From contig NZ_JAVIZX010000001.1 in the NCBI RefSeq assembly GCF_031453675.1, forward strand, positions 3,060,001 to 3,124,000: a stretch of 64,000 nucleotides of DNA. The letters run 5' to 3'. The notes under the pieces were generated by a model. It did not search any database, was not told where the DNA came from, and saw only the letters and a program-made list of their open reading frames with translations. Source of the DNA: Paracidovorax wautersii (GTDB lineage Bacteria; Pseudomonadota; Gammaproteobacteria; Burkholderiales; Burkholderiaceae_C). This document shows, in pieces, positions 5,601 to 32,069 of this stretch; position 1 is the stretch's first letter, and each line of letters opens with the position of its first letter. A program made the position numbers and the translations under genes.

Positions 5601-6381
5601 TGGAGATGCCCGGGCCTTCGTACACGCCGCGGCCGTTGGAGGCCTTGCCGATGGCGTGGATGGCGTCCACGTACGACTGCATGTAGCGCGCGGCGTCCTG
5701 GGCGGTAAGGGCGGCCTCGCCCAGCATGTCGTACGAATAGCGAAAGCCCTGGGCTTCCAGCGGCCTGGCATTGGCGAGCGCCTGGGCGATGGTCTCGCCG
5801 GTCACGAACTGCTCGCCCATCATGCGCATGGCCATGTCCACGCCCTTGCGGATCAGCGGCTCGCCGCCCTTGGCGGTGAGCTTGCGCAGCGCGGCGCTCA
5901 GGCCGCGCTCGCTGTGCGTGGCCACCAGCTTGCCCGTGAGCAGCAGGCCCCAGGTCGCAGCGTTGACGAAAAGCGAGGGGCTCTTGCCCAGGTGCGGCTC
6001 CCAGTCGCCGGTGCTGATCTTGTCGCGGATCAGCGCATCGCGCGTGGCGGCATCGGGAATGCGCAGCAGCGCCTCGGCCAGGCACATCAGCGCCACGCCC
6101 TCCTGCGACGACAGCGCGAACTCCTGCAGCAGGCCCTGCACGATGCCGGCGCGTCCGCCGGCCGCCTTGCGGTGGCGCAGCGTGTCGGCCAGGCGCAGGG
6201 CCAGGGCCTGGATGTCGGCTCCCACGCTGTGCGGCACGCGGGCCAGGTGCAGCAGCGGTGCCAGCGCTTCGGGCTCGGGCCGGCGGTAGGCCGCCGTGAT
6301 GGCATGGCGCAGCGGGTGGTTGTCCGCGCCGCGGTGCGCGAATGACGGGGCGGCTGCAGTGTGGGCGGTGGCGATGGTCAT
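2629..6381 (-). CDS. putA: Bifunctional proline dehydrogenase / L-glutamate gamma-semialdehyde dehydrogenase PutA
   Basis: This 1250-residue enzyme oxidises proline to glutamate in two steps. The FAD-dependent proline dehydrogenase barrel occupies about residues 90-490 (KLSALHPRYSRAQ, RLVKGAYWDSEIKRAQ near 370, CLHGMGEPLYE). The NAD-dependent aldehyde dehydrogenase occupies about 560-1030, with AETGGQNAMIV and the catalytic Cys in SAGQRCSALR near residue 848. A further ~200 residues form the C-terminal domain of long PutA proteins. The ribbon-helix-helix DNA-binding domain of trifunctional PutA is absent, so regulation is probably by the divergent Lrp-type gene. The start is the ATG at 6381. 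Confidence 0.95.
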   Translation of the reverse strand: MTIATAHTAAAPSFAHRGADNHPLRHAITAAYRRPEPEALAPLLHLARVPHSVGADIQALALRLADTLRHRKAAGGRAGIVQGLLQEFALSSQEGVALMCLAEALLRIPDAATRDALIRDKISTGDWEPHLGKSPSLFVNAATWGLLLTGKLVATHSERGLSAALRKLTAKGGEPLIRKGVDMAMRMMGEQFVTGETIAQALANARPLEAQGFRYSYDMLGEAALTAQDAARYMQSYVDAIHAIGKASNGRGVYEGPGISIKLSALHPRYSRAQHARVMDELYPVVLQLVELARGYDIGLNIDAEEADRLELSLDLLERLCHAPSLAGWNGIGFVIQAYQKRCPFVIDFCVDLARRSGHRLMVRLVKGAYWDSEIKRAQVDGLADYPVYTRKSHTDVSYIACARKLLAAPEAVYPQFATHNAQTLATIYQLADPATYQPGQYEFQCLHGMGEPLYEQVVGPLAAGKLGRPCRIYAPVGTHETLLAYLVRRLLENGANTSFVNRVADATLPLEALVGNPVATVDADTAAEGRAALPHPRIPLPRQLYGPRRANSAGLDLSSEDVLRTLDAALAASAGQQWHAAPIIDGPVAGGATTAVRNPAQHAAVVGQVQEAAEADVDTALQAAQSALPAWSGVAPAERAAALRRAADLLEDSTVPLLGLLMREAGKTAANAIAEVREAVDFLRYYAVQTAEHFDNATHRPLGPVVCISPWNFPLAIFLGQVAAALAAGNTVLAKPAEQTPLVAAEAVRLLHQAGVPAGAVQLLPGRGETVGARLVGDARVMGVMFTGSTDVARLLQRSVAGRLDANGRPIPLIAETGGQNAMIVDSSALVEQVVVDVVASAFDSAGQRCSALRVLCVQEDAADRVIAMLQGAMAELHVGNPGALAVDVGPVIDEEARAGIEQHISALRAQGRRVFQQGVAGEVAAAGTFVAPTLIELNSIAELQREVFGPVLHVVRYARERMDALLDQINATGYGLTQGLHTRIDETVERVVQRAHAGNVYVNRNMVGAVVGVQPFGGEGLSGTGPKAGGPLYLLRLLSQHPAGAAQAAIASTATVAPDAQARTALQPTLHALAEWAHAGGRTALVAACAALGQSSVAGLSATLPGPTGERNQYTLAPRARTLCLAASDGDRLAQLAAILAVGGTAVWPQHEAAALRGQLPATVQERIALVSDWQDGAVALDAVLHHGDADSLRRVCAAVAQRPGAIVGVTGLAPGATDIPLERLVIERALSVNTAAAGGNASLMTMA

Positions 6382-14353: not shown

Positions 14354-15286
14354 TCAGCGGCGGCCCCGCGCGAGCAGGATCAGCAACACGGCCGCCAGGA
14401 TGACCGCGCACGCAAGCCATTCCCCGCGGGTGACCGATTCGCCCGCCAGGGCGCTGCCCAGCAGCAGCGCGATCAGCGGATTCACGAAGGCATAGCTGGA
14501 AGCCAGCGGTGCGCTGGCATGCGCCAGCAGGGACATATAGGCACTGAAAGCGACCAACGACCCCAGTACCACCAGATACAGCCAGGCTGCGATGGCGGCG
14601 GGCTGCGGCGGCCACTGCGGGCGCTCGCCAAGCGCGAAGGACACCACCATGAGCAGCGTGCCACCGCACAGCATCTCACTGGCGAAGCCGCTGGCGCCGG
14701 GCGCCAGCGCAAAGCGGGTGGTCGACAGCACCGATCCCAGGGACCAGGCCGCCGTTGCCGCAAGGATGCAGGCGACGCTTGCGGGCGATGCGGCGAAGCT
14801 GGCGCCGCGCATCAACAGCAGCACCCCGCCCAAGCCGAGCGCCATGCCGATCAACTCCCCCCGGGAAGGCCTGCGGCCCCACAGCAGGCCCCAGCCGCAG
14901 ATCATCATCGGTACCACGGCAATGCAGGCCGCGATGAGTCCGGAACTGATGTGGATGCTAGCCGTGGCGGTCAGTCCCATCCCGACTCCGAGCATCAGGC
15001 CGCCGATCAGCAGCGCGTGCAGCCACTGCCGGCCGCTGGGCCAGGGCGGTAGCGTCCCTCGGCTGCCTGAAGCGCGACATCTGCGCCAGGCGACCCAGCC
15101 CATCAGCAGGCCACCCGCCACCAGGAAGCGGGTGCCCATCTGGAAGAAGGGCGGAAAGCTCGTCAGAGCGACGCGGATGGCCAGATAGGTGGAGCCCCAG
15201 ACCACGTAACAGGCAAGCAGTGCCGCCCAGAGCATGGGAGCGAGGCGCGGAGCGCGCGCCGACAGCAAAAAGGAAGAGGAAGGCAT
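14354..15286 (-). CDS. EamA/DMT family exporter, YedA-like
   Basis: This is a 310-residue inner-membrane protein with about ten membrane helices in two EamA repeats (first repeat YVVWGSTYLAIRVAL; second repeat AWSLGSVLSTTRFAL). SYAFVNPLIALLLGSALAGE near the C-terminus resembles E. coli YedA. The probable role is export of a metabolite or amino acid. It is divergent from an Lrp-type regulator, an arrangement often seen for amino-acid exporters. I chose the ATG at 15286 (MPSSSFLL). Confidence 0.82.
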   Translation of the reverse strand: MPSSSFLLSARAPRLAPMLWAALLACYVVWGSTYLAIRVALTSFPPFFQMGTRFLVAGGLLMGWVAWRRCRASGSRGTLPPWPSGRQWLHALLIGGLMLGVGMGLTATASIHISSGLIAACIAVVPMMICGWGLLWGRRPSRGELIGMALGLGGVLLLMRGASFAASPASVACILAATAAWSLGSVLSTTRFALAPGASGFASEMLCGGTLLMVVSFALGERPQWPPQPAAIAAWLYLVVLGSLVAFSAYMSLLAHASAPLASSYAFVNPLIALLLGSALAGESVTRGEWLACAVILAAVLLILLARGRR

Positions 15287-15380
15287 GGGGCAGGATCCTA
15301 TCGGCGGGCACCCCTTTGTTCCATGGCACAACCAAGGTAATGGGCCGGTTGTACCGTGGTTTTGATGGTCAAATAAGTTG

Positions 15381-15872
15381 ATGGCAGAAATCTATGAAAT
15401 GGATTCCCACGATGGCTGTATCTTGGCCGAACTGCAGGCAGATGGGCGTCTATCCATGGCAGAGCTGGGCCGTCGCGTGCACCTGAGCCAACCCGCGGTG
15501 ACCGAGCGCGTGCGCAAGCTCGAAGCCGCCGGGGTGATCCAGGGCTATGGCGCGCGCGTGGATTACGCCCGGCTGGGCTACGGTATCCGGGCCATCATTC
15601 GGGTGGGGCGGGCCGAATACGCCCGGTTGGTGCACTTGATAGAGAACACGCCAGAGGTGGTCAATGCCTACAACGTGACCGGCGATGACAGCTGGGTGCT
15701 GGAGATCGTCGTGATCGACGTGAGCCACCTGGATGCGGTGGTGACGGGCTTCTGCCTGTTGGCGCAGACGTCGACCTGCATCGTGCTGAACGTCCCGCGC
15801 GAACACGCGGTGGTCCTGCCCGCCCGGCGTGACAGCATCCGTCCTCCTATCCGCAAGGTCACCGGCCGGTGA
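15381..15872 (+). CDS. Lrp/AsnC-family transcriptional regulator
   Basis: This is a 163-residue Lrp-type regulator: a helix-turn-helix (CILAELQADGRLSMAELGRRV, shortened here) and an effector-binding domain with VVNAYNVTGDDSWVLEIV. It is divergent from the YedA-like exporter (gap 94 bp), and a second EamA exporter converges from the other side, so it may control one or both. A TTG one codon upstream (15378) and an ATG at 15399 are alternative starts. Confidence 0.86.
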   Translation: MAEIYEMDSHDGCILAELQADGRLSMAELGRRVHLSQPAVTERVRKLEAAGVIQGYGARVDYARLGYGIRAIIRVGRAEYARLVHLIENTPEVVNAYNVTGDDSWVLEIVVIDVSHLDAVVTGFCLLAQTSTCIVLNVPREHAVVLPARRDSIRPPIRKVTGR

Positions 15873-15913
15873 GCCAAGACCCGTCCGGCCGCGAAGGCTG
15901 GGCGATGCGGAAG

Positions 15914-16870
15914 TCAGCCTGGCCGCGCCGTCTTCCGCCCTACCCGCAGTGCGGCACGTGAAGGAAACGTGGCCAGCACGACGCTGGCCAGGGCGATGGC
16001 GAACGCCAGCAGCTGCATGGCCGTGAACCGCTCGCCCAGCACCAGCACTCCGACGAGTGCGGCACTCACCGGCAGTAGCACCGTGAACACGCCTCCTTGG
16101 GCCGCGGGGACGGCCTTTAGGCCGGTCATCCAAAGCCAGACAGTCCACATGCACGCTGCCAGCGCGTAGAACACCAGCAGCGCCCAGGTGCCGGGCGAGA
16201 CGGCGGAGAAGTCGAAACTCCAGGCGAAGTACAGGCCCAGCGGCGTCGCGATGGCGAAGCCCCACAGATTGATCAGCGAGGTGATGCGCTTGGGGCCCAG
16301 CGTACCGGTGAGCTTCTTGCCGATGACGGAGTAGGCTGCCTCGCAAAGGGAGGCGGCCAGCAGCAGAAGGTGGCCCAGCCATTGCAGGTTCCCAGCGGCC
16401 GCAGTCTGTGTGCCGGCTGTGTGCGCCGCACTGCCAGTGTTCGACAGCGAAAACAGCGCGATGCCGATCGCGGCACAGCCCACGGCGACCCAGGTGCGGG
16501 GCGCCACGCGCTCGTGCAGGAACAGCCAGCTCATGACCGCCACGGCGGCGGGGATGGCCGCCATGATCACGCCGGCCGATGTAGCGCTGGTCAGGCTCAC
16601 CCCATAGATCATGCAGACCGTGAACAGGAAGTTGCCCAGGAAGGAGTGCAGGAACAGCAGGGCCTGCGTGCGTGGAGTCAGAGGGGGCTCGTCGACCGGC
16701 TTGCGGAGCCAGTGCAGCATGGCGATTCCGCCGATGCCGAAGCGCAGCCACGCCAGAAGGAACACGGGGAAAGCCGCCGCCAGCGGCTTGGAGAGTGCGA
16801 CGTAGCTGCCGACCAGCGACATGCTCAGAGCGAGGCACACATAGGCAACGGGGCGGCTGGGCGGGTTCAC
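15914..16870 (-). CDS. EamA/DMT family transporter
   Basis: This is a 318-residue protein with ten predicted membrane helices in two EamA halves (SLVGSYVALSKPLAAAFPVF; FLFTVCMIYGVSLTSATSAG; MTGLKAVPAAQGGVFTVLLP). The C-terminal tail is basic and cytoplasmic. The substrate is unknown. It belongs to a different branch from the YedA-like gene nearby, so the two are not a recent duplication. Confidence 0.82.
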   Translation of the reverse strand: MNPPSRPVAYVCLALSMSLVGSYVALSKPLAAAFPVFLLAWLRFGIGGIAMLHWLRKPVDEPPLTPRTQALLFLHSFLGNFLFTVCMIYGVSLTSATSAGVIMAAIPAAVAVMSWLFLHERVAPRTWVAVGCAAIGIALFSLSNTGSAAHTAGTQTAAAGNLQWLGHLLLLAASLCEAAYSVIGKKLTGTLGPKRITSLINLWGFAIATPLGLYFAWSFDFSAVSPGTWALLVFYALAACMWTVWLWMTGLKAVPAAQGGVFTVLLPVSAALVGVLVLGERFTAMQLLAFAIALASVVLATFPSRAALRVGRKTARPG

Positions 16871-16903
16871 TAGACTGTGGGTGCTTGCAATGGAGCGTAC
16901 ATC

Positions 16904-17344
16904 ATGCCCGAGGATTTCTCCGACAACGACCGCCGGGCAACGCCAGCGCGCTACGTTTTTGTATACGGCACGTTGCGGCGTGGCTGCAGCAACGACATCA
17001 CCCGGCTGTCGCCACCCCCGCGGTGGGTGGGTGAGGCGGAATTGCCGGGCGTGCTTTACACCCTCGGCGCCTACCCTGGAATGCGGCTAGAGGGGCACGC
17101 AGCAGGTGACCGCCCCGTGCGGGGAGAGGTCTACGCCATCGACCCTGCGCTGGAGCATGTATTGGATGGAATCGAGGGACTGGTTCCCGGCGCCGCACCC
17201 CAGGATGACGATGAGTACTCTAAAAGAGAGGTGCGTGTGCGCGTTGCCGGGCAGATGCTGTCCTGTTTGATGTACGAGGTTCATCCGCGTTGTGCTTTAC
17301 CGGCTGCGCGGCTGGATCACGGCAACTGGCGCGAATGCAAGTGA
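16904..17344 (+). CDS. Gamma-glutamylcyclotransferase-like (GGCT/AIG2) protein
   Basis: This is a 146-residue protein of the gamma-glutamylcyclotransferase-like fold. The signature is YVFVYGTLRRGCSND near the N-terminus, then GEAELPGVLYTLGAYPGM and GEVYAIDPALEHVLDGIEG. The Glu in the last motif is in the position of the catalytic acid of the family. The natural substrate is unknown. The ATG at 16904 is preferred over an in-frame GTG at 16877. The next 250 bases are markedly AT-rich compared with the surroundings and belong to the aceA promoter region. Confidence 0.78.
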   Translation: MPEDFSDNDRRATPARYVFVYGTLRRGCSNDITRLSPPPRWVGEAELPGVLYTLGAYPGMRLEGHAAGDRPVRGEVYAIDPALEHVLDGIEGLVPGAAPQDDDEYSKREVRVRVAGQMLSCLMYEVHPRCALPAARLDHGNWRECK

Positions 17345-17488
17345 ATCAATTTTGCTTTGTGAAAATTGAATTTCATATTGCGGATTTTTTGATTGATGCA
17401 ATGCGAGAAAATTTCTTAGGATGAGATAAAAGATTTCTTTATGTGGCAATCGATGCGTAATGTATTGATTTTATTGGGTTAATTTTTA

Positions 17489-17532
17489 TTCTTGTATAAG
17501 ACATAAGAGGTTGCGCGGGTCTTATAGAAGAC
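17489..17532. promoter_or_regulatory. Paired palindromes upstream of aceA
   Basis: Two near-identical palindromes, TTCTTGTATAAGAC (17489-17502) and GTCTTATAGAAGAC (17519-17532), share the form TCTT-N4-AAGAC with centres exactly 30 bp apart, so they lie on the same face of the helix. They sit 65-100 bases before aceA and look like a dimer-of-dimers operator. The regulator is not identified. Confidence 0.6.
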
Positions 17533-17546
17533 CTAAAGTTGATTCC

Positions 17547-17566
17547 AAGGACAAGGCATTGTCCCT
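17547..17566 (+). promoter_or_regulatory. Hairpin in the aceA leader
   Basis: GGACAA-GGCA-TTGTCC is a perfect 6-bp inverted repeat with a 4-base loop, about 30 bases before the aceA start. It could be an mRNA 5' hairpin or a further operator. Confidence 0.4.
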
Positions 17567-17595
17567 TCCTTCTCAACTAGCCCATGGAGTTCCAC

Positions 17596-18927
17596 ATGCC
17601 CGAATCGCTCAATGCCCAGCTCAGCCGTGACCAACAGATTGCCGCCTTGGAGAACGACTGGGCCCACAACCCCCGCTGGAAGGGGCTCAAGCGCGGCTAC
17701 TCCGCTGCCGACGTGGTGCGCCTGAGGGGCAGCCTGCAGCCGGAATACACGCTGGCCCGCCGTGGTGCGGAGAAGCTCTGGGACAAGATCAATGGCGGTG
17801 CCAAGAAAGGCTACGTGAATGCCTTTGGCGCCATCTCCGCTGGCCAAGCCATGCAGCAGGCCAAGGCTGGCTTGGAAGCGGTGTATCTGTCGGGTTGGCA
17901 GGTCGCAGCCGACGGCAATTCGTCCGAGACCATGTACCCCGACCAGTCGCTGTACGCCTATGACTCGGTGCCGACCATGGTTCGCCGCATCAACAACACC
18001 TTCAAGCGTGCCGACGAGATCCAGTGGGGCCGTGGCATCAATCCTGGCGACAAGGAATTCATCGACTATTTCCTGCCCATCGTCGCCGATGCGGAGGCCG
18101 GCTTCGGCGGCGTGCTGAATGCCTTCGAACTGATGAAGAACATGATCGCCGCGGGCGCTGCCGGCGTGCACTTCGAAGACCAACTGGCTGCCGTGAAGAA
18201 GTGCGGCCACATGGGCGGCAAGGTGCTGGTTCCCACCCATGAGGCTGTCGAGAAGCTGATCGCAGCCCGTTTTGCGGCGGACACCATGGGCGTGCCTACC
18301 ATCATCCTGGCGCGTACCGACGCAGAGGCCGCCAACCTCATCACGTCCGACCACGATGCGAATGACAAGCCGTTCCTGACCGGCGAGCGGACCCAGGAAG
18401 GCTTCTACCGCGTGAAGAACGGCCTGGAGCAGGCCATCAGCCGCGGCGTTGCCTATGCGCCGTATGCCGATCTTGTGTGGTGCGAAACCGGTACGCCCGA
18501 CCTGGGCTTTGCCCGCGAGTTCGCCGAGGCCGTGCATGCCGCATCCCCCGGCAAGTTGTTGTCGTACAACTGCTCGCCTTCCTTCAACTGGAAGAAGAAC
18601 CTGGACGACAAGACCATCGCCCGCTTCCAGGATGAGCTGTCCGCACTGGGCTACAAGTACCAGTTCATCACGTTGGCGGGCATCCATATCAACTGGTACA
18701 ACACCTTCCAGTTCGCCCATGCATACGCTCGCGGCGAAGGCATGAAGCACTACGTGGAGCAGGTGCAGCAGCCCGAGTTCGAGGCGCGCGAGAAGGGCTA
18801 CACCTTCGTGTCGCACCAGCAGGAAGTGGGCGCAGGTTACTTCGACGACGTGACCACGGTGATCCAGGGCGGTTCCTCCAGCGTGAAGGCGCTGACGGGC
18901 TCCACCGAGGAAGAGCAGTTCCACTGA
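17596..18927 (+). CDS. aceA: Isocitrate lyase
   Basis: This is a 443-residue glyoxylate-cycle enzyme that splits isocitrate into glyoxylate and succinate, needed for growth on acetate or fatty acids. It is collinear with E. coli AceA. It has the active-site loop KKCGHMGGK with the catalytic Cys, [20 protein letters not shown] and [13 protein letters not shown]. The ATG at 17596 has GGAG six bases upstream; the ATG at 17584 carries that ribosome site inside its own codons. No malate synthase gene is beside it. It is a single-gene unit with a terminator. Confidence 0.96.
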
Positions 18928-18952
18928 TCCGCTTGCAGGGTTGATGCGCTGA

Positions 18953-18980
18953 AGCCCGGGCCGAGTGCCCGGGCTTTTTT
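18953..18980 (+). terminator. Intrinsic terminator after aceA
   Basis: AGCCCGGG and CCCGGGCT form the stem around GCCGAGTG or a shorter loop, followed by six T residues, 26 bases after the stop. Confidence 0.88.
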
Positions 18981-19020
18981 ATGGCCGTGCGCGAAAGCCG
19001 AGTGCGACAGTCCGGTGCGG

Positions 19021-19026
19021 TAAAAT
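19021..19026 (+). promoter_or_regulatory. -10 box of the thrS operon promoter
   Basis: TAAAAT matches five of six consensus bases and would start transcription near 19033, just before the leader peptide. No good -35 is visible at the expected distance. Confidence 0.5.
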
Positions 19027-19061
19027 GCCTCCATCACTCACAAACAAGGGCGAGAAAGGCA

Positions 19062-19112
19062 ATGCTGGTTATGACACCGCGAACTACGACGGAGATTTCC
19101 ACCGGCCGCTGA
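19062..19112 (+). CDS. thrS leader peptide (16 residues, Thr-rich)
   Basis: ATG at 19062 opens MLVMTPRTTTEISTGR and a TGA stop. Five of 16 codons are Thr (19074 ACA, 19083 ACT, 19086 ACG, 19089 ACG, 19101 ACC), three of them in a row. AAAGG lies just upstream. Its position between the promoter and a terminator, with thrS downstream, is what a charged-tRNA-Thr sensor needs. It differs from the longer open frame that crosses the same region and runs to 19219. Confidence 0.7.
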   Translation: MLVMTPRTTTEISTGR

Positions 19113-19189
19113 GGCTGGATGTTCGCGCCTGCACGACACTTGCACCTTCCTTCCAAAAGCGCGGACCTCGTTCCGCGCTTTTTGCTTTT
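19078..19189 (+). promoter_or_regulatory. Ribosome-mediated transcription attenuator of thrS
   Basis: Four segments pair in alternatives. Segment 1 CGCGAAC (19078-19084, beside the Thr codons) pairs perfectly with segment 2 GTTCGCG (19121-19127). Segment 2, shifted one base (TTCGCGC, 19122-19128), pairs with segment 3 GCGCGGA (19159-19165). Segment 3 (AGCGCGGA, 19158-19165) pairs with segment 4 TCCGCGCT (19172-19179), which is followed by TTTTTGCTTTT: an intrinsic terminator. A ribosome stalled on Thr codons would cover segment 1, free segment 2 to form the 2:3 antiterminator, and let transcription enter thrS. Confidence 0.7.
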
Positions 19190-19240
19190 CGGGCATCGGG
19201 CGCATCGTTTACCGATTGATTGACGAACAGGATTTTTCGA

Positions 19241-21160
19241 ATGATTCAGATCACGCTTCCGGACAACTCCCGCCGCGAATATCCAGGCCCTGTATCCGTG
19301 GCCGACGTGGCGCGCTCCATCGGTCCGGGGCTGGCCAAGATGACCGTGGCCGGCAAGGTCGACGGCAAGCTCGTGGATGCCAGCGACCTCATTGACCACG
19401 ATGCCCGCCTGCAGATCATCACACCGCGCGATGCCGAGGGCGTGGAGATCATTCGCCACTCGTGCGCCCACTTGGTAGGCCATGCCGTGAAGCAGTTGTA
19501 CCCCGGTGCCAAGATGGTCATCGGCCCGGTGATCGAAGAAGGCTTCTATTACGACATCGCGTTCGAACGCCCGTTCACGCCCGAGGACATCGCCGCTATC
19601 GAGCAGCGCATGAAGGAGCTGATCGCACAGGACTACGACGTCATCAAGAAGATGACGCCGCGCGCGGAGGTCATCGACGTGTTCAAGGCGCGTGGCGAAG
19701 AGTACAAGCTGCGCCTGATCGATGACATGCCGGACGAAACCGCCATGGGCCTGTACTACCACCAGGAATACGTCGACATGTGCCGGGGCCCGCACGTGCC
19801 GAACACCCGTTTCCTGAAGGCGTTCAAGCTCACGCGCGTGTCGGGAGCCTACTGGCGAGGCGATGCCAAGAACGAGCAGTTGCAGCGTGTGTACGGCACG
19901 GCCTGGGCCGACAAGAAGGATCTGGATGCGTATATCCAGCGCATTGAAGAAGCGGAAAAGCGCGACCACCGCAAGCTGGGCCGCGAGCTCGACCTGTTCC
20001 ACATCGACGAGCACTCGCCCGGCACGGTGTTCTGGCACCCCAAGGGCTGGACGATCTGGCAAGGCGTGGAGCAGTACATGCGCCAGGTCTACCGCGACAA
20101 CGGCTATCAGGAAGTGAAGGGTCCGCAGATCCTCGACAAGCACCTGTGGGAGAAGACGGGCCACTGGGACAAGTACCGCGAGAACATGTTCACGACGGAG
20201 AGCGAGAAGCACGACTACGCGCTCAAGCCCATGAACTGCCCTGGCCACATCCTGATCTTCAACCAGGGCGTGAAGAGCTACCGCGACCTGCCGCTGCGCT
20301 TCGGCGAGTTCGGCCAGTGCCACCGCAACGAGCCCACGGGTGGGCTGCACGGCATCATGCGCGTGCGCGCCTTCACGCAGGACGATGGCCACATCTTCTG
20401 CACCGAAGACCAGATCCAGCAGGAGTGCATCAACTTCACGACGCTGCTGCAGAAGGTCTACAAGGATTTCGGCTTCACCGACATCATCTACAAGGTGGCC
20501 ACGCGGCCTGAAAAGCGCATCGGTTCCGAAGAAAGCTGGGACAAGGCCGAGAACGCGCTGATCGAAAGTCTGAAGGCCTCGGGCTGCGAATACCAGATCG
20601 CCGTGGGCGATGGCGCTTTCTACGGTCCCAAGCTGGAGTACACCTTGCGCGACGCGATCGGCCGTCACTGGCAGTGCGGCACGATCCAGGTCGATCCGTC
20701 GATGCCGGAGCGCCTGGGCGCAGAGTACGTGGGCGAAGACGGCGCGCGCCACCGTCCCATCGTGCTGCACCGCGCGATCGTGGGCAGCCTAGAGCGATTC
20801 ATCGGTATCCTGATCGAGCAGCACGCCGGCGCGCTGCCGACATGGCTCGCGCCAGTGCAGGTGGCGGTGCTCAATATCACGGGCGCGCAGGACGACTACT
20901 GTCGCGAAATTGCTGCAAAGCTCCAAAAAGCGCTGCCGAATCAAGACCTTAGGGTGGTGACCGATCTGCGCAACGAAAAGATTACGTATAAAATACGCGA
21001 GCATTCGTTGCAAAAGCTGCCTTACATCCTCGTCGCAGGCGAGAAAGAAAAGGCTGCTGGTGCCGTCGCAGTGCGCGCCCGGGGCAATCGAGACCTCGGT
21101 GTGATGTCCTTCGAAGCGTTCGTCGCGCTCATCGCCCAGGACATCGCTTCTAAAGCTTGA
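19241..21160 (+). CDS. thrS: Threonine-tRNA ligase
   Basis: This 639-residue class II synthetase charges tRNA-Thr. The order is: TGS domain (~1-62), editing domain ([29 protein letters not shown]), catalytic core with motif 2 ([19 protein letters not shown]) and zinc ligands (MNCPGH; DDGHIFC), motif 3 ([19 protein letters not shown]), and the anticodon-binding domain. The ATG at 19241 is chosen (MIQITLPD). It heads the thrS-infC-rpmI-rplT-pheS-pheT-ihfA-merR order, and the Thr-codon attenuator upstream could set expression of the whole run. Confidence 0.97.
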
Positions 21161-21244
21161 ACCGTGTCGGAAACTGCTTTAGCCCGCGTGGATTGTGCGG
21201 AGTCTGCTACTTTGTTTGTAGCTTTTTGTTGAAGGAATAGAGCC

Positions 21245-21862
21245 ATCGCTACTGAATTTCGTGATCGTCGCCAGCGCGAGGAGCGCAAGCACCGCCTGAA
21301 CCGTGAAATCATGGCCCCCGAGGTTCGCCTCTCCGGCCCTGACAACGAGCCTTTGGGCGTCGTAAGCCTCATGGAAGCCCTCCGCATGGCGGGCGAGCTG
21401 GATGTGGACCTGGTGGAGATTGCCGCCACGGCCAACCCTCCCGTGTGCCGCCTGATGGACTATGGCAAGTTCAAGTACCAGGAACAGAAGCGCGCGGCCG
21501 AGGCCAAGGCCAAGCAGACGGTCATCGAGATCAAGGAGGTCAAGTTCCGTCCCGGTACGGACGATGGCGACTACAACATCAAGATGCGCAATATCCGCCG
21601 CTTCCTGGCGGACGGTGACAAGTGCAAGATCACGCTGCGTTTCCGCGGCCGTGAAATCACTCACCAGCAGCTGGGCCTGGACCTGCTGAACCGCATTCGT
21701 GACGAGTTGGGTGACAGCATCCTGATCGAGCAGTTCCCCAAGCTGGAAGGGCGCCAGATGATCATGATGATCGCGCCCAGCCGCAAGAAGCCGGCGCCGG
21801 CCAAGCCGGCCGATGGCGGTGCTGCAGCCCCGGCTGCGGCTCCCGCCGGGCAGGCCAGCTGA
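21245..21862 (+). CDS. infC: Translation initiation factor IF-3 (AUC start)
   Basis: IF-3 binds the 30S subunit, checks the start codon and prevents early joining of 50S. The conserved N-terminus ([18 protein letters not shown]) lies upstream of the first ATG (21311), and the only sensible start is ATC at 21245, with AAGGA 8 bases before it. That gives 205 residues. Rare AUU/AUC starts are known for infC and allow IF-3 to repress its own translation. Domains: N-domain with [15 protein letters not shown], linker, and C-domain with [12 protein letters not shown]. The tail is Ala/Pro-rich. Confidence 0.95.
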
Positions 21863-21887
21863 GGCAAGAGGGTTTCAAGAGATGTGG

Positions 21888-22009
21888 GTTGCGCCGGCCT
21901 TCGGGCGGGCGTAACGCAACAGGTGGTGCTTTGCACTGCCGTACAGCCGGCGCGAGCTGGCTGAAAAAAGTGGCTCGGGGCCAACAAGTTTGCAGATCGG
22001 TCTGCAAAC
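21888..22009 (+). promoter_or_regulatory. Structured leader of rpmI-rplT
   Basis: Two clear hairpins lie in the 179-base gap before rpmI. One is GTTGCG...CGCAAC (21888-21893 with 21915-21920), enclosing a GC-rich inner stem. The other is a perfect 9-bp stem GTTTGCAGA-TCGG-TCTGCAAAC (21988-22009). In E. coli the L20 protein represses rpmI through a leader structure, and this may be the counterpart, but no sequence match is claimed. Confidence 0.45.
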
Positions 22010-22041
22010 GCCTCACGAGCACAACGAAAAGGAGCATTCAC

Positions 22042-22245
22042 ATGCCCAAAATGAAGACCAAGAGCAGCGCGAAGAAACGTTTCCGCGTTCGTCCCGGTGG
22101 CACCGTCAAGCGCGGTCAAGCCTTCAAGCGTCACATCTTGACGAAGAAGACCACCAAGAACAAGCGCCATCTGCGTGGTGCGGTTGCTGTGCACGAGACC
22201 AACATGGGCTCGATCGCACAAATGCTGCCCGGCATGGGCGTTTAA
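22042..22245 (+). CDS. rpmI: 50S ribosomal protein L35
   Basis: This is a 67-residue, strongly basic ribosomal protein ([20 protein letters not shown]...[15 protein letters not shown]). AAAAGGAG lies 7 bases before the ATG. It is 26 bases ahead of rplT and co-transcribed with it. Confidence 0.96.
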
Positions 22246-22270
22246 TTAACGACGAACAAGGAGTACTCAC

Positions 22271-22630
22271 ATGCCTCGCGTCAAACGTGGTGTAACGGCC
22301 CGTGCCCGTCACAAGAAAGTTCTGGCCCTCTCCAAGGGTTTCCGTGGTCGCCGCGGTAATGTCTTCCGCATCGCCAAACAGGCGGTAATGAAGGCTGGGC
22401 AATATGCCTACCGTGATCGCCGCACCAAGAAGCGCGTGTTCCGCCAACTGTGGATCGCCCGTATCAACGCCGCTGCACGTGAACTGGGCCTGACCTACAG
22501 CCAGTTCGCCAACGGCCTGAAGAAGGCTTCCATCGAGATCGACCGCAAGATGCTGGCCGACCTCGCGGTGCACGACAAGGCTGCTTTCGGCAGCATCGTG
22601 GAACAAGTCAAGGCCAAGCTGGCTGCTTGA
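22271..22630 (+). CDS. rplT: 50S ribosomal protein L20
   Basis: This is a 119-residue 23S rRNA-binding assembly protein ([18 protein letters not shown], then [31 protein letters not shown] in segments). Length and sequence are standard for the family. In E. coli it is also the translational repressor of its own operon. A ribosome site AAGGAG lies 10 bases upstream. Confidence 0.97.
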
Positions 22631-22644
22631 GTTCACGGTCGGCG

Positions 22645-22720
22645 GCTATGAGTTTCATAGCTGCCAGCGCTTAAACAACAAGGGCTAGGGCTTGAAAAGG
22701 CGCTAGCCCTTGTTTATTTT
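22645..22720 (+). repeat. Dispersed repeat with 12-bp hairpin before pheS
   Basis: The copy contains TCATAGCTGCCAGCGC and then a perfect 12-bp stem AACAAGGGCTAG / CTAGCCCTTGTT (22677-22688, 22703-22714) followed by TATTTT. It can act as a partial terminator between rplT and pheS. Confidence 0.6.
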
Positions 22721-22731
22721 CAAGAGTCGAT

Positions 22732-23784
22732 ATGAACGAGTTGGATGCTCTGGTCCAGAGCGCGCAGCAGCTGTTTGCGCAGACCGCCACCCCCGCTGAT
22801 CTGGAAAACGCCAAGGCACAGTTCCTGGGCAAGTCGGGGCGCCTCACCGAGCTCATGAAGGGCATGGCGCAGCTGTCGGTGGAAGAGAAGAAGTCGCGCG
22901 GCGCTGCCATCAACGTGGCCAAGCAGGCGATCGAGGCGGCCCTCACGGCGCGCCGCCAGGCGCTGGCCGATGCCGAACTGCAGCTCCAGCTCAAGGCCGA
23001 GGCGCTCGACGTGACGCTGCCGGGCCGCCAGCGCGGGCAGGGCGGCCTGCATCCGGTGTCGCTGACACTGGAGCGCATCGAGTCCATCTTCGGCTCCATG
23101 GGTTTCGACGTGGCCGAGGGCCCCGAGATCGAGACCGACTGGTTCAACTTCACCGCGCTGAACACGCCGGAAGACCATCCCGCGCGCTCGATGCACGACA
23201 CCTTCTATGTGGAAGGCGGCACGCCCGAGGCGCCCAACCTGCTGCGCACGCACACCAGCCCGATGCAGGTGCGCCATGCCGTGCAGCACGTCAAGAAATA
23301 CCGCCATCTGCTGGACGCCGGCCAGTCCATGCCCGAGATCCGCGTGATCGCGCCCGGCCGCACCTACCGCGTGGACAGCGATGCCACCCATTCGCCGATG
23401 TTCCACCAGTGCGAAGGCCTGTGGATCGGTGAGAACGTGAGCTTCAAGGACCTGAAGGTCGTCTTCACCGACTTTTGCCGTACCTTCTTCGAAAGCGATG
23501 ACCTGGTGCTGCGCTTCCGTCCGAGCTTCTTCCCGTTCACCGAGCCCAGCGCCGAAGTGGACATCCAGTTCCAGGCGGGCCCGCTGGCCGGCCGCTGGCT
23601 GGAAGTGGCCGGCTCCGGCCAGGTGCACCCGAACGTGGTGCGCAACATGGGCTTGGACCCCGAGAAGTACATCGGCTTCGCCTTCGGCATGGGGCCCGAC
23701 CGCCTGACCATGCTGCGCTACGGCGTGAACGACCTGCGCCTGTTCTTCGACGGCGATATCCGCTTCCTGTCGCAGTTCCAGTAA
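22732..23784 (+). CDS. pheS: Phenylalanine-tRNA ligase alpha subunit
   Basis: This is the 350-residue catalytic subunit of the alpha2-beta2 enzyme. It has an N-terminal coiled-coil arm (~1-90), then the class II core: [19 protein letters not shown], motif 2 region [11 protein letters not shown] and [21 protein letters not shown] (in segments), and motif 3 [18 protein letters not shown]. The start ATG is at 22732. It is paired with pheT downstream across a repeat-filled gap of 166 bases. Confidence 0.97.
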
Positions 23785-23789
23785 TCCCA

Positions 23790-23880
23790 TAAAAAGTGAG
23801 CTGCCGGCGCTTGTCCAATAAGGAATTCAAAGTGTTTTCATATGGAAAACCAGCAATGACAAGCGCAGGTAGCTATCTTT
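23790..23880. repeat. Dispersed repeat with terminal inverted repeats between pheS and pheT
   Basis: This copy looks like a miniature element. AGCTGCCGGCGCTTGTC at one end faces GACAAGCGCAGGTAGCT at the other, with about 45 bases of unrelated, AT-richer sequence between. It separates two genes that are normally close together. Confidence 0.6.
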
Positions 23881-23950
23881 TTTTTGTTTCTCCGTTCCGT
23901 CGGCCGGCGCCCGTGTCCGCACCGAAGAACGCCACCAAGACTGAGTGACC

Positions 23951-26395
23951 ATGCAATTTCCTGAATCCTGGCTGCGCGAGTTCTGCAATCCGCCGCTCTC
24001 CACCGCCGAGCTGGCCGAAACGCTGACCATGGCCGGCCTCGAGGTCGAAGAACTGGAAGCCGTGGCCCCGCCGTTCACCAAGATCGTCGTCGGCGAGATC
24101 AAGGAAGCCGTTCAGCACCCGAATGCCGACCGCCTGCGCGTGTGCCAGGTCGATGCGGGGCAGGGCGCCTTGCTCAACATCGTCTGCGGCGCGCCAAACG
24201 CCCGCGTGGGCATCAAGGTGCCGTGCGCGCTGGTCGGTGCCGAGCTGCCGCCGGGCGAGGATGGCAAGCCTTTCCTGATCAAGGTCGGCAAGCTGCGCGG
24301 CGTGGAAAGCCAGGGCATGCTGTGCTCCGCGCGCGAGCTGAAGCTGTCCGAGGAAAACGCCGGCCTGCTGGAGCTGCCCCTGGATGCGCCCGTGGGCCAG
24401 GACATCCGCCAGTACCTGAACCTGGACGACACGCTGTTCACGCTCAAGCTCACGCCCAACCTGGCGCACTGCCTGAGCGTCTACGGCGTGGCGCGCGAAG
24501 TGGCGGCGCTGACCGGTGCGCCGCTGAAGGCGCCCAGCTTTCCCGCCGTGCCCGTGGTCCATGCGGACGTGCTGCCCGTGAAGGTGCTGGACAGCGACCT
24601 GTGCGGCCGCTTCTCCGGCCGCATCGTGCGCAACGTGAACACGCTGGCCAAGACCCCGCAGTGGATGGTCGACCGCCTGGCGCGCTGCGGGCAGCGCAGC
24701 GTGTCGCCGCTGGTGGACATCTCCAACTACGTGATGTTCGAGCTGGGCCGTCCGTCGCACATCTTCGATCTGGACAAGATCCACGGCGGGCTGGAAGTGC
24801 GCTGGGCGCGCGAGGGCGAGACGCTCAAGCTGCTCAGCGGCAGCACCGTCACGCTCGATGCCAAGGTGGGCGTGATCGCCGACGGGCAGGCCGTGGAATC
24901 GCTGGCCGGCATCATGGGCGGCGACGCCACGGCCGTGTCCGACGACACGCGCCACATCTACATCGAGGCCGCCTTCTGGTGGCCCAAGGCCGTGGCCGGC
25001 CGTTCGCGCCGCTACAACTTCTCCACCGACGCCGGCCACCGCTTCGAGCGCGGCGTGGACCCGCAACTGACCGTGGAGCACATTGAGCGCATCACGCAGC
25101 TGGTGCTGAACATCTGCGGCACGCCCGAGACGGTCTGCGGCCCCATAGACGACCAGCAGCCGGCGATGCCGGCGCCGGCACCCGTCACGCTGCGCGTCGC
25201 CCGTGCGGCCAAGGTCATCGGCATGCCGCTGACGCAGGCGCAGTGCACCGATGCGCTGGTGCGCCTGGGCCTGCCCGTCACGCAGGGCGAGGGCAGCGTC
25301 ACCGTGGTGCCGCCGTCCTATCGTTTCGACCTGACCATCGAAGAGGACCTGATCGAGGAAGTCGCGCGCATGGTGGGCTACAACCAGCTGCCCACCACCA
25401 AGCCGCTGGCGCCGATCAGCCCGAAGCTGCGCGCCGAGAACCGCCGCAGCCCGTTCGCCGTGCGCCGTGCGCTGGCGGGCCTGGGCTATCAGGAGACCAT
25501 CAACTTCAGCTTCGTCGAAGAGAGCTGGGAGCGCGAGCTGGCCGGCAACACTGACCCGATTCGCCTGCTGAATCCCATCGCCAGCCAGTTGAGCGTCATG
25601 CGCTCGTCGCTGATCGGTTCGCTGCTGCAGGTGGTGAAGTTCAACCTCGACCGCAAGGCGCCGCGCGTGCGCGTGTTCGAGCTGGGCCGCGTCTTCCTGC
25701 GCGACGCCGCCGTGCAGAACACGGACACCACCGTGCAGGGCTTCCATCAGCCGATGCGCGTGGCGGGCATCGCCTGCGGCAGTGCTGACGCGCTGCAGTG
25801 GGGCTGTAAGGACGCGGGCGTCGATTTCTTCGACGTCAAGGGCGATGTGGAGGCGCTGCTGGCGCCGCGCCGCGCCACGTTCGAGCCGGCTGCACACCCT
25901 GCGATGCATCCGGGCCGCTGCGCGCGGGTTCTGGTGGACGGCGCGCCGGTCGGCTTCGTCGGCGAACTGCATCCGCAGTGGCGCCAGGGCTGGGACCTGC
26001 CGCAGGTGCCGGTGCTCTTCGAGCTGGAGTTGGACGCCGTGCTGCAGCGCGATGTGCCGAACTTCCGCGCCGTGGGCAAGCAGCAAGCGGTAGAGCGCGA
26101 CGTCGCCATCGTGGTGGCCGAGCGGGTGACGCATGCAGAGGTGCAGGCGGCCATTGCCGCCGCGGTGCCGGCCACGACTCTACGCTCCGCCGTGTTGTTC
26201 GATGTGTACCGTCCCAAGCCCGCGAAGGGCGGCGAGGCGGCTCCGACGGTCGGCCTGGCTGCGGGCGAGAAAAGCCTGGCGGTGCGCCTGACGTTGGCCC
26301 GCGACGATGCCCCACTCGCCGAGGGCGAAATCGACGCCGCCATGCAGGCCGTGGTGCAACAATTGGGCGAGCGCCTGGGCGCACGCCTGCGTTGA
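23951..26395 (+). CDS. pheT: Phenylalanine-tRNA ligase beta subunit
   Basis: This is the 814-residue beta subunit. Domains in order: N-terminal and tRNA-binding (EMAP-like) domain ~1-150 ([22 protein letters not shown] in part), B3/B4 editing domain with [10 protein letters not shown] and [14 protein letters not shown]5 domain, core-like fold ([20 protein letters not shown]), and the C-terminal anticodon-binding FDX-ACB domain ([12 protein letters not shown]). The ATG at 23951 is used; a GTG two codons earlier is possible. It ends 10 bases before ihfA. Confidence 0.96.
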
Positions 26396-26405
26396 AGGGA
26401 TGGCA

Positions 26406-26753
26406 ATGTTGAACGAGGAACGCGAAATGGTGGAATTTGCGGTCGAAAGCCTGGAGACGCCTGCACTGACCAAGGCGCAGCTGGCCGATCTGCTGTTCGA
26501 CCAGATCGGCCTGAACAAGCGCGAGTCCAAGGACATGATCGACGCGTTCTTCGACCTCATCTCGCAGAGCCTGGTCGAGGGCAAGGATGTGAAACTGTCG
26601 GGCTTCGGCAATTTCCAGATCCGCACCAAGGCGCCGCGGCCCGGGCGCAATCCGCGCACGGGCGAGGCGATTCCGATCGAGGCGCGCCGCGTCGTCACCT
26701 TCCACGCGAGCAGCAAGCTCAAGGAACAGATCCAGGGCGAGCCCAAGGCCTGA
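26406..26753 (+). CDS. ihfA: Integration host factor subunit alpha
   Basis: This nucleoid protein bends DNA at specific sites as a heterodimer with IhfB. It carries [22 protein letters not shown] and the HU/IHF signature [18 protein letters not shown]. The position just after pheT is conserved in proteobacteria. From the ATG at 26406 (AAGGGA upstream) it has 115 residues; a start at 26430 ([10 protein letters not shown]) also has a ribosome site, GAGGAA, and is closer to the usual length. Confidence 0.95.
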
Positions 26754-26858
26754 TGTGCCTGCGCCTGCCCGCGTGCTCGCCTCGGGAGTACGTCCTGATG
26801 GCACGAGCCGGCCGGCTGCGTTAGGCTAGAAGGCTTCTTCGCCCCCACCCGCGTCCCA

Positions 26859-27296
26859 ATGAACTCCCCGTTGCCCGCCATTCCAGCCAAGCGCTACTTC
26901 ACCATCGGTGAGGTGGCGGAGCTGTGCGGCGTGAAGCCGCACGTCCTGCGCTACTGGGAGCAGGAGTTCACCCAGCTGCGGCCCATGAAAAGGCGCGGCA
27001 ACCGGCGCTACTACCAGCACCACGAAGTGCTCATGATCCGGCGCATCCGCGACCTGCTGTACGACCAGGGGTTCACGATCAGCGGTGCGCGCAACCGCCT
27101 GCAGGAGCTCGCACACGCGGGCAAGGGACATGGCCTGGCCCTGGACGCCGAGTTGGAGGAAGAAGAGGGCGGCGATGGCCACATGCCTGCGACCGGCGAT
27201 GAGGCGCTGCGTGTGATGGCGACCCCCGCAATGCTGGACGCGCAGGGCGTTCGCCGTGAATTGATCGAAATTCGCGAACTTCTTTCTTTGGGCTGA
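26859..27296 (+). CDS. MerR-family transcriptional regulator
   Basis: This is a 145-residue regulator with an N-terminal MerR winged helix (YFTIGEVAELCGVKPHVLRY, then RRGNRRYYQHHEVLMIRRIR). The C-terminal part is acidic and short and has no Cys metal site. It resembles the MerR gene that often follows ihfA in Gram-negative genomes. Its target is unknown. The gap from ihfA is 105 bases. Confidence 0.86.
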   Translation: MNSPLPAIPAKRYFTIGEVAELCGVKPHVLRYWEQEFTQLRPMKRRGNRRYYQHHEVLMIRRIRDLLYDQGFTISGARNRLQELAHAGKGHGLALDAELEEEEGGDGHMPATGDEALRVMATPAMLDAQGVRRELIEIRELLSLG

Positions 27297-27323
27297 TTTT
27301 TCGCTATATACTCTAAGTCTTGT

Positions 27324-27400
27324 CGGCGTGTAGCGCAGCCTGGTAGCGCACTTGCATGGGGTGCAAGGGGTCGCGAGTTCGAATCCCGCCACGCCGACCA
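27324..27400 (+). tRNA. tRNA-Pro (anticodon GGG)
   Basis: It is a 77-base cloverleaf. The acceptor CGGCGTG (27324-27330) pairs with CACGCCG (27390-27396), followed by A and an encoded CCA. The D arm is GCGC...GCGC. The anticodon stem CTTGC/GCAAG holds loop ATGGGGT with anticodon GGG. The T loop is TTCGAAT. It reads CCC and CCU codons. Confidence 0.96.
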
Positions 27401-27409
27401 TCGATGTGA

Positions 27410-27440
27410 AAACCCAGCTTCTTCGGAGGCTGGGTTTTTT
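27410..27440 (+). terminator. Intrinsic terminator after tRNA-Pro
   Basis: AAACCCAGC and GCTGGGTTT form a 9-bp stem followed by T residues, 10 bases past the tRNA. Confidence 0.88.
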
Positions 27441-27507
27441 ACTTTCCGGCCTGCTCTGGGCTCCGGGTTTACACGGACGACGGCAAGCAGGCATGGCTGT
27501 GTCCGGC

Positions 27508-27513
27508 TATAAT
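27508..27513 (+). promoter_or_regulatory. carAB promoter, -10 box
   Basis: A perfect TATAAT lies 124 bases before the carA start. The region 17 bases upstream has no good -35. The resulting leader of ~115 bases contains GC-rich inverted repeats around 27594-27617 (CCCGCGGG; CTACCGGGCGACCCG). Confidence 0.5.
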
Positions 27514-27636
27514 CGGGGGCTTTCCCGCAAACAGTCGCCCGGCCGCACCCAAAGCAATCCCTCACAAGCAGCAGTCCTCAGGAAGTCGAGCCTTCCCGCG
27601 GGCTACCGGGCGACCCGTAACCATTCGGAGAACCCA

Positions 27637-28799
27637 GTGCTCTTGTCTCTACAGGGATCCTTCCCGCCCGCCATCCTGGCGCTCGCAGACGGCACGGTCT
27701 TTATCGGCAACTCGATCGGTGCCACCGGCACCACCGTCGGCGAAGTGGTGTTCAACACCGCCATCACCGGCTACCAGGAAATCCTCACCGACCCCAGCTA
27801 CTGCCAGCAGATCGTCACCCTGACGTATCCGCACATCGGCAACTACGGGATCAACGCCGAGGACATCGAGGCCGACAAGGTCCACGCCGCCGGCCTCATC
27901 ATCAAAGACCTGCCCCTGCTGGCCAGCAACTTCCGCAGCAGCGAGACGCTGTCGCAGTACCTCGTGCGCGAAAGCACGGTGGCCATCGCCAACATCGACA
28001 CCCGCAAGCTGACGCGCCTGCTGCGCGACAAGGGTGCGCAGAACGGCGCCATCGTGGGTCTGGCCGCAGGCGAGCAGGTCACGCAGGCACGCGTCGATGA
28101 AGCCCTGGCGGCGGCCAAGGCTGCGCCGAGCATGAAGGGCCTGGACCTCGCCAAGGTCGTGAGCACGCCGACCTCCTACGTCTGGGACCAGACCGAGTGG
28201 AAGCTGGGCGAAGGCTACGGCCGGCAGACCGCGCCGCGCTTCCATGTGGTGGCGTACGACTACGGCGTGAAGAAGAACATCCTGCGCATGCTGGCCGAGC
28301 GTGGCTGCAAGCTCACCGTGGTGCCCGCGCAGACGCCGGCCGCCGAGGTGCTGGCCATGAACCCTGACGGGGTGTTCCTGTCCAACGGCCCCGGAGACCC
28401 GGCGCCCTGCGACTACGCGATCGAGGCCACGCGCCAGATCATCGACGCCGGCGTGCCCACCTTTGGTATCTGCCTGGGCCACCAGATCATGGCCCTGGCT
28501 AGCGGCGCCCAAACCTTCAAGATGGACAACAGCCACCACGGCGCCAACCATCCCGTGAAGGACCTGGACAACGGCCGCGTCAGCATCACCAGCCAAAACC
28601 ACGGCTTTGCCGTGGAGGCCGAGACGCTGCCCGCCACGCTGCGCCCCACGCACACCAGCCTGTTCGACGGCACGCTGCAGGGCCTGGAGCGCACCGACCA
28701 GCCGGCCTTCTGCTTCCAGGGCCACCCGGAAGCCTCGCCCGGCCCGCATGACATCGCCTACCTGTTTGACCGCTTCACCGCGCTGATGGAGAAGAAGTA

Positions 28800-28800
<1 letters not shown>
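27637..28800 (+). CDS. carA: Carbamoyl-phosphate synthase small subunit
   Basis: This is the 387-residue glutaminase subunit that feeds ammonia to CarB for arginine and pyrimidine synthesis. The N-terminal CPSase small-chain domain ([20 protein letters not shown] in part; [16 protein letters not shown]) precedes a class I amidotransferase domain with nucleophile Cys in [11 protein letters not shown] and the His/Glu pair in [11 protein letters not shown]. The start is the GTG at 27637, with GGAG six bases upstream; the frame stays open further upstream, but no conserved sequence lies there. Confidence 0.96.

Positions 28801-32069
<3,269 letters not shown>

Follow-up and report, generated by a model that had tools for sequence, protein, structure and literature searches.

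A probable threonine-codon attenuator preceding thrS in the Burkholderiales

In Escherichia coli, attenuators with leader peptides control amino-acid operons and pheST (thrL, trpL, hisL and pheM), and thrS is regulated through an operator, an anticodon-mimic hairpin that is bound by threonyl-tRNA synthetase (ThrRS), which blocks translation with no leader peptide involved. The attenuation of amino-acid and aminoacyl-tRNA operons is reportedly treated by Lopatovskaya, Seliverstov and Lyubetsky (2010), who could already list the case described here; in searches of the open PMC literature, no leader-peptide attenuator of a Burkholderiales thrS was recognised. Judging from the available portion of the respective reports, a leader peptide upstream of thrS is not new in itself: a Thr-containing one has been proposed for thrL-thrS of Streptomyces lividans (PMC8079986), so that a preliminary description of the present locus, which called such control of thrS an unfamiliar mechanism, was too strong on this point. 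The accessible parts of other papers on synthetase genes deal with cysS of Rhodobacterales, where ribosome-mediated attenuation was proposed from the conserved codons of an upstream ORF (motif uORFC-8-2; PMC8632094), with trpS and leuS in Streptomyces (PMC1262725), and with hisS in bacilli (PMC2965389), the main text of the last containing no 'thrS'.

The thrS leader, its threonine codons and its distribution

The window, that is, the whole stretch of 64,000 nucleotides of Paracidovorax wautersii DNA that was analysed, carries a short Thr-rich ORF and a terminator-like hairpin between aceA and thrS, with the following features.

17584-18927: aceA, isocitrate lyase, the upstream neighbour of thrS
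18951-18976: hairpin 3′ of aceA, followed by a run of T's, read from the sequence
19021-19026, plus strand: TAAAAT, probable -10 box of the leader promoter, read by eye
19071-19112, plus strand: leader ORF of 13 codons, MTPRTTTEISTGR and stop, with its conserved start ATG at 19071 (sequence and family comparison)
19078-19084, plus strand: segment 1, CGCGAAC, in leader codons 3-5
19121-19129, plus strand: segment 2, GTTCGCGCC, partner of segment 1 or of segment 3
19155-19189, plus strand: intrinsic terminator-like hairpin (19155-19182) with a T-rich tail
19158-19166, plus strand: segment 3, AGCGCGGAC, partner of segment 2 (predicted antiterminator) or of segment 4 (predicted terminator)
19171-19179, plus strand: segment 4, TTCCGCGCT
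19241-21160, plus strand: thrS, threonyl-tRNA synthetase, the predicted target gene, with its ATG at 19241 (TIGR00418 above cut-off; start kept in relatives)

The aceA-thrS interval thus holds, in this order, the aceA hairpin with its T-run, the -10 box, the short ORF and the terminator-like hairpin. Boxes resembling TAAAAT are found at a comparable place in relatives, and a promoter scan of the region did not call the leader promoter. The gene order from thrS onwards is infC, rpmI, rplT, pheS, pheT and ihfA, with rpmI between infC and rplT detected in relatives too when a frame-correct copy served as the query. As side observations, infC can be read in frame 5′ of its first ATG (21311) as far as an ATC at 21245 that is preceded by GAAGGAA (window 21245-21310), rare start codons of such a kind being common in IF3 genes, and a weak hairpin with a T-run lies between thrS and infC (window 21206-21222), where matches are about as frequent as expected by chance (8 against a mean of 7.3).

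The preliminary description had proposed as the leader a 16-codon ORF at 19062-19112 with five Thr codons, three of them consecutive. This ORF (MLVMTPRTTTEISTGR and stop) is present and in frame with the shorter one, and its Thr-rich character is conserved; its start is not, since 22 of the 110 family leaders have ATG at the position of 19062, against 109 at that of 19071, and 19062 was discarded as the start. A block, GAGAAAGG, lies no more than 30 nt 5′ of the leader start in 87/110 and is presumably the ribosome binding site.

The comparison was based on 198 thrS upstream regions whose orientation was checked. The 126 family loci came from 109 of the 120 family genomes, with 15 further loci from the same genus and 2 others; eleven family genomes were left out, namely three with no credible thrS (G036, G076, G120), six with partial thrS matches only (G055, G085, G111, G116, G139, G142; for several of them an N-terminal thrS piece lies on another contig), one at a contig end (G071) and one with a full-length thrS (G129). 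The non-family sample comprised 72 of 156 genomes and covered each of the 50 family codes except f41, the non-Burkholderiales sample 29 of 55 genomes, and the thrS tree 126 of 138 loci.

An MTPR-type leader start precedes thrS in 110 of the 126 family loci and is absent from 16, and the expectation that a short Thr-rich ORF would be conserved there, with synonymous change at its Thr codons, is borne out. Codon 6 specifies Thr in 86/110 leaders, with all four Thr codons in use (non-Thr in 24/110), and codons 7-11 do so in 17-48 per cent; in 15/110 leaders, parsed or not, departures from Thr affect codon 6 as well as others. The most telling control is the reading frame: across codons 6-11, ACN occurs at 244 of 660 positions in frame, against 6/660 and 15/660 in the other two frames, and on the thrS tree of 126 tips Thr occupies codon 6 in 93 of 112 leaders despite at least 43 changes of that codon. 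The persistence of Thr through so many codon changes, together with the enrichment in a single frame, therefore points to selection for threonine and not for a fixed string of bases, and the ORF has the appearance of a translated reading frame rich in regulatory codons and kept by selection. Codons 1-4 are near-invariant even at synonymous sites (ATG in 109, ACA in 108, CCG in 110 and CGA in 106 of the 110 leaders), the near-invariance of codons 1-5 being partly built in, because the same motif served to find these sequences. The ACA CCG CGA of codons 2-4 (window 19071-19085 and relatives) is more constant than the 1:2 pairing described below requires. Past residue 5, the peptide is variable apart from its Thr richness.

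Beyond the family sample, the exact 18-mer of the leader start, GGTTATGACACCGCGAAC, was scanned against one genome per species in 84,980 species and gave at least 119 stretches. Among the matches listed (80 of these), thrS lies directly downstream in 79 of the 79 testable loci, the remaining stretch being too short, at a distance of 123-306 nt from the leader ATG; the hosts among the matches listed include Burkholderia, Paraburkholderia, Cupriavidus, Massilia, Janthinobacterium, Collimonas, Comamonas, Acidovorax, Variovorax and Rhodoferax. A motif-free count, which took any ATG ORF that has at least three Thr in codons 2-14 and precedes a terminator-like hairpin, scored 93 of 124 loci with a hairpin in the window's family (2.4 expected), 17/56 in other families of Burkholderiales (0.8 expected; 39/56 negative) and 1/14 in the non-Burkholderiales set (0.2 expected). 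Outside the window's family but within the order, a frequent place of the leader is between a tRNA gene, tRNA-Val according to our reading of its anticodon, and thrS, and the peptides start differently (MFRTCTTTWC, MSFRTTTTGTLNLG, MRPPTT...). In six family loci with no leader (L051, L061, L070, L071, L099, L110), the hairpin is retained close behind a -10-like box, as read by eye.

Exclusive pairings, predicted switch and alternative explanations

The pairing of segments 1 and 2, CGCGAAC at 19078-19084 with GTTCGCG at 19121-19127, is found as first described, and so is that of segments 3 and 4, AGCGCGGA at 19158-19165 with TCCGCGCT at 19172-19179, whose 8 bp and following T-run belong to the hairpin 19155-19182. 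The pairing of segments 2 and 3, GTTCGCGC at 19121-19128 with GCGCGGAC at 19159-19166, is present with the single G-U that had been noted, and at 8 bp it is one pair longer than the 7 bp originally given. Folding of the leader RNA gives -54 kcal/mol, with z = -2.76 against 200 dinucleotide shuffles. Taken alone, the hairpin 19155-19182 does not exceed the shuffle expectation (1 against a mean of 0.9 in the 901-base surroundings), and it is significant because it is conserved, not by single-sequence statistics: a terminator-like hairpin was found in 110/110 leader-bearing family loci, so that a predicted intrinsic terminator follows the leader and precedes the first gene. Another hairpin, across the leader stop codon, seemed conserved in the window's genus and was rejected, as across the family it reaches a score of at least 11 in 55/110 loci against a shuffled fraction of 0.48.

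With Thr-codon conservation, the pairings and the terminator-like hairpin all recurring in relatives, the comparison supports the preliminary reading of the region as a ribosome-mediated attenuator, and we put at roughly 0.87 the probability that the leader is a classical ribosome-mediated transcription attenuator that senses the charging of Thr-tRNA and controls thrS. Most likely, it would raise synthetase production when charged threonine tRNA is short. When Thr-tRNA is scarce, a ribosome would stall at the Thr codons (codons 5-7) and cover segment 1, the 2:3 antiterminator would form and block 3:4, and RNA polymerase would continue into thrS. With ample Thr-tRNA, the ribosome would proceed to the stop codon at 19110-19112 and hinder segment 2, so that 3:4 could form and transcription would stop near 19185; the same outcome is predicted when there is no translation and 1:2 forms.

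The compensatory changes anticipated for these stems are seen in 3:4 and, with modest phylogenetic support, in 2:3. Among sequences with the column in the stem, one 3:4 column reads A-T 30, C-G 27, T-A 10, T-G 2 and G-C 1, with two non-pairs; the same segment 3 base faces segment 2 as T-A in 32 and G-C in 32 of 100 parsed leaders, the commonest break being T-C (14). The 2:3 pairing is retained in 70/96, against 42.0 +/- 4.5 and a maximum of 58 when the segment 3 bases are reshuffled, a control that ignores kinship. Native 2:3 partners bind at -11.82 kcal/mol and exchanged ones at -11.54, a difference equalled by 38 of 10000 permutations; in a second, partly overlapping set the values are -10.57 and -10.18, equalled by 0 of 5000. 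On the tree, supported branches provide seven independent pairs with different segment 3 bases, and segment 2 changed concordantly in 3-5 of them and oppositely in 0 (p 0.0625-0.25), which favours covariation by its direction only. Against dinucleotide-shuffled spacers, the signal is moderate, with a mean z of -1.00 for 1:2 and -1.08 for 2:3 and values below -1.64 in 38/110 and 30/110, respectively. Segments 1 and 3 have overlapping targets in 89/110 relatives, as an exclusive switch needs. Taken together, these tests give the antiterminator support that is real, not overwhelming, and the 2:3 covariation detectable in the sequences is real but phylogenetically modest.

In the ribosome models, in which only the RNA left free by the ribosome was folded and a ribosome at the stop codon was set to cover 13 nt downstream, segment 3 is mostly paired in 105/110 leaders with the ribosome at codon 7 (mean 0.77, shuffled control 0.68) and in 35/110 in the bare RNA (mean 0.42; window 0.24), so that the modelled behaviour is as expected in 105/110 for the stalled state and in 75/110 for the bare state. 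With the ribosome at the stop codon, the models give no clean release of segment 3 (mean 0.62; window 0.71), with a clear drop in 31/110 (a fraction of 0.28 against 0.21 in shuffled sequences) and a clear rise in 5/110; kinetics or the true ribosome footprint may explain the missing release.

Of the other explanations, an improbable one is that the stalled ribosome acts with no 2:3 antiterminator at all, through thrS translation, Rho access or mRNA stability, as the modest phylogenetic covariation of 2:3 and the leaderless hairpins near the presumed mRNA 5′ end of some species would allow; the advantage of native over swapped pairing, the overlapping targets of segments 1 and 3 and the T-run behind the hairpin nevertheless argue for the antiterminator. 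Marginally less probable still, the hairpin might merely terminate transcription from upstream (from aceA or, in other families, from a tRNA gene), the Thr-rich ORF being incidental. The chance-level frequency of the hairpin by itself in the surrounding sequence and its occurrence in some family loci with no leader agree with such a role, but aceA already has its own hairpin and T-run at 18951-18976, the Thr enrichment is confined to one frame, and thrS follows the motif in all testable loci among the matches listed. A functional or arrest peptide (MTPRT...) as the product of the leader, with Thr richness as a by-product, is very hard to credit. The constancy of codons 1-5 at synonymous sites, beyond the needs of segment 1, speaks for it and is partly due to the motif search; against it, only Thr richness is kept beyond residue 5, and other families have other starts. 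Equally implausible is a T-box or an E. coli-type ThrRS-binding operator, both of them known controls of thrS, as the leader has no Rfam match up to E = 1 and hairpins with a CGU anticodon-mimic loop are not above chance at leader-bearing loci (3/110 against 3.7 expected).

The Rfam search of window positions 15000-29000 up to E = 1, T-box models included, gave nothing that overlaps the leader; weak SorX and anti-hemB matches fall on the aceA hairpin, outside the leader, and were rejected. Seven related loci, scanned over their full length to E = 0.1, gave only tRNA and sub-threshold HPnc0260. The HPnc0260 matches (L021 1288-1408, L178 108-262, L198 244-405) fall below the gathering score and, in three loci with a tRNA gene, cover the tRNA and the leader on the other strand from thrS. 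They were set aside because the firm portion of the single match aligned, that in L021, corresponds to the 3′ half of the tRNA in reverse.

Outgroup loci, a possible transfer of thrS and the downstream genes

In the non-Burkholderiales Gammaproteobacteria, 9 of 29 loci carry a hairpin with a CGU loop before the thrS start (0.6 expected), and 4 more have a GGU or UGU loop; the CGU loop resembles the anticodon loop of tRNA-Thr. In E. coli K-12, GTGATCTTTCGTGTGGGTCACC ends 20 nt 5′ of the thrS ATG, and this hairpin we take to be the ThrRS operator. Anticodon-mimic hairpins like the K-12 operator were observed in L322, L324, L325, L330, L332, L341 and others.

One genome of another order (G304; locus L348, G304:C31:17779-25800) has at 4001-5902 a thrS that is 70 per cent identical to the window's, whereas identity is 48-64 per cent for its infC, rpmI, rplT and part of pheS; in a Burkholderia locus (L205), the corresponding values are 60 per cent (thrS) and 60-81 per cent (the same four neighbours). 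A Thr-rich ORF, MSTTTAQR, precedes a hairpin upstream of the G304 thrS, and the gene was probably acquired together with its own attenuator. In Cupriavidus metallidurans, the available part of the published start-site data places a mapped thrS start at the RNA gene Rmet_R0015, which fits transcription entering upstream of the leader, and gives infC, rpmI and ihfA a separate mapped start each, which weakens the idea that the whole cluster is coupled (PMC9045368). It is a tentative and rather doubtful proposal that, in the ancestry of Burkholderiales, a leader attenuator responsive to tRNA charging replaced an E. coli-type ThrRS operator in the control of thrS, that this sensor can move with its gene, as in the otherwise foreign operon of G304, and that, with thrS at the head of the cluster, read-through adjusts infC, L35/L20, pheST and ihfA as well to the supply of threonine where strong internal promoters are absent.

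Comparison with known attenuators

On the evidence of the sequences, a Thr-codon attenuator on thrS is very likely real and widespread in Burkholderiales, with a classical mechanism. It would represent a regulatory element of wide occurrence before a translation gene in many Burkholderiales, one that the searched copy of Rfam does not contain; it would make an evolutionary switch testable, with one gene under two unrelated sensors of threonyl-tRNA supply in related groups; and the leader could serve as a natural reporter of threonyl-tRNA charging or ThrRS inhibition in such bacteria. The E. coli thrS operator shares with it the target gene and the response to threonyl-tRNA supply or ThrRS level. 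The uORFC-8-2 motif, in the available part of its description, shares a tRNA synthetase target and differs in its cysteine codons, in its gene, cysS, and in belonging to another class (PMC8632094). The thrL of S. lividans, as given in the accessible portion of that report, is MKRVRPFLETTPGFVPAR, with two Thr, a leaderless start and no uridine-rich run behind its hairpin (PMC8079986), in contrast to the Thr runs and the hairpin with a T-run of the Burkholderiales leader. The predicted architecture is that of thrL, trpL, hisL and pheM of E. coli, with three mutually exclusive pairings and a predicted intrinsic terminator behind a short ORF in which the regulatory codon abounds, and with a first downstream gene that uses the same amino acid; it differs from them in its target, thrS, in its occurrence in Burkholderiales, and in a peptide and segments that are unrelated in sequence (no Rfam match).
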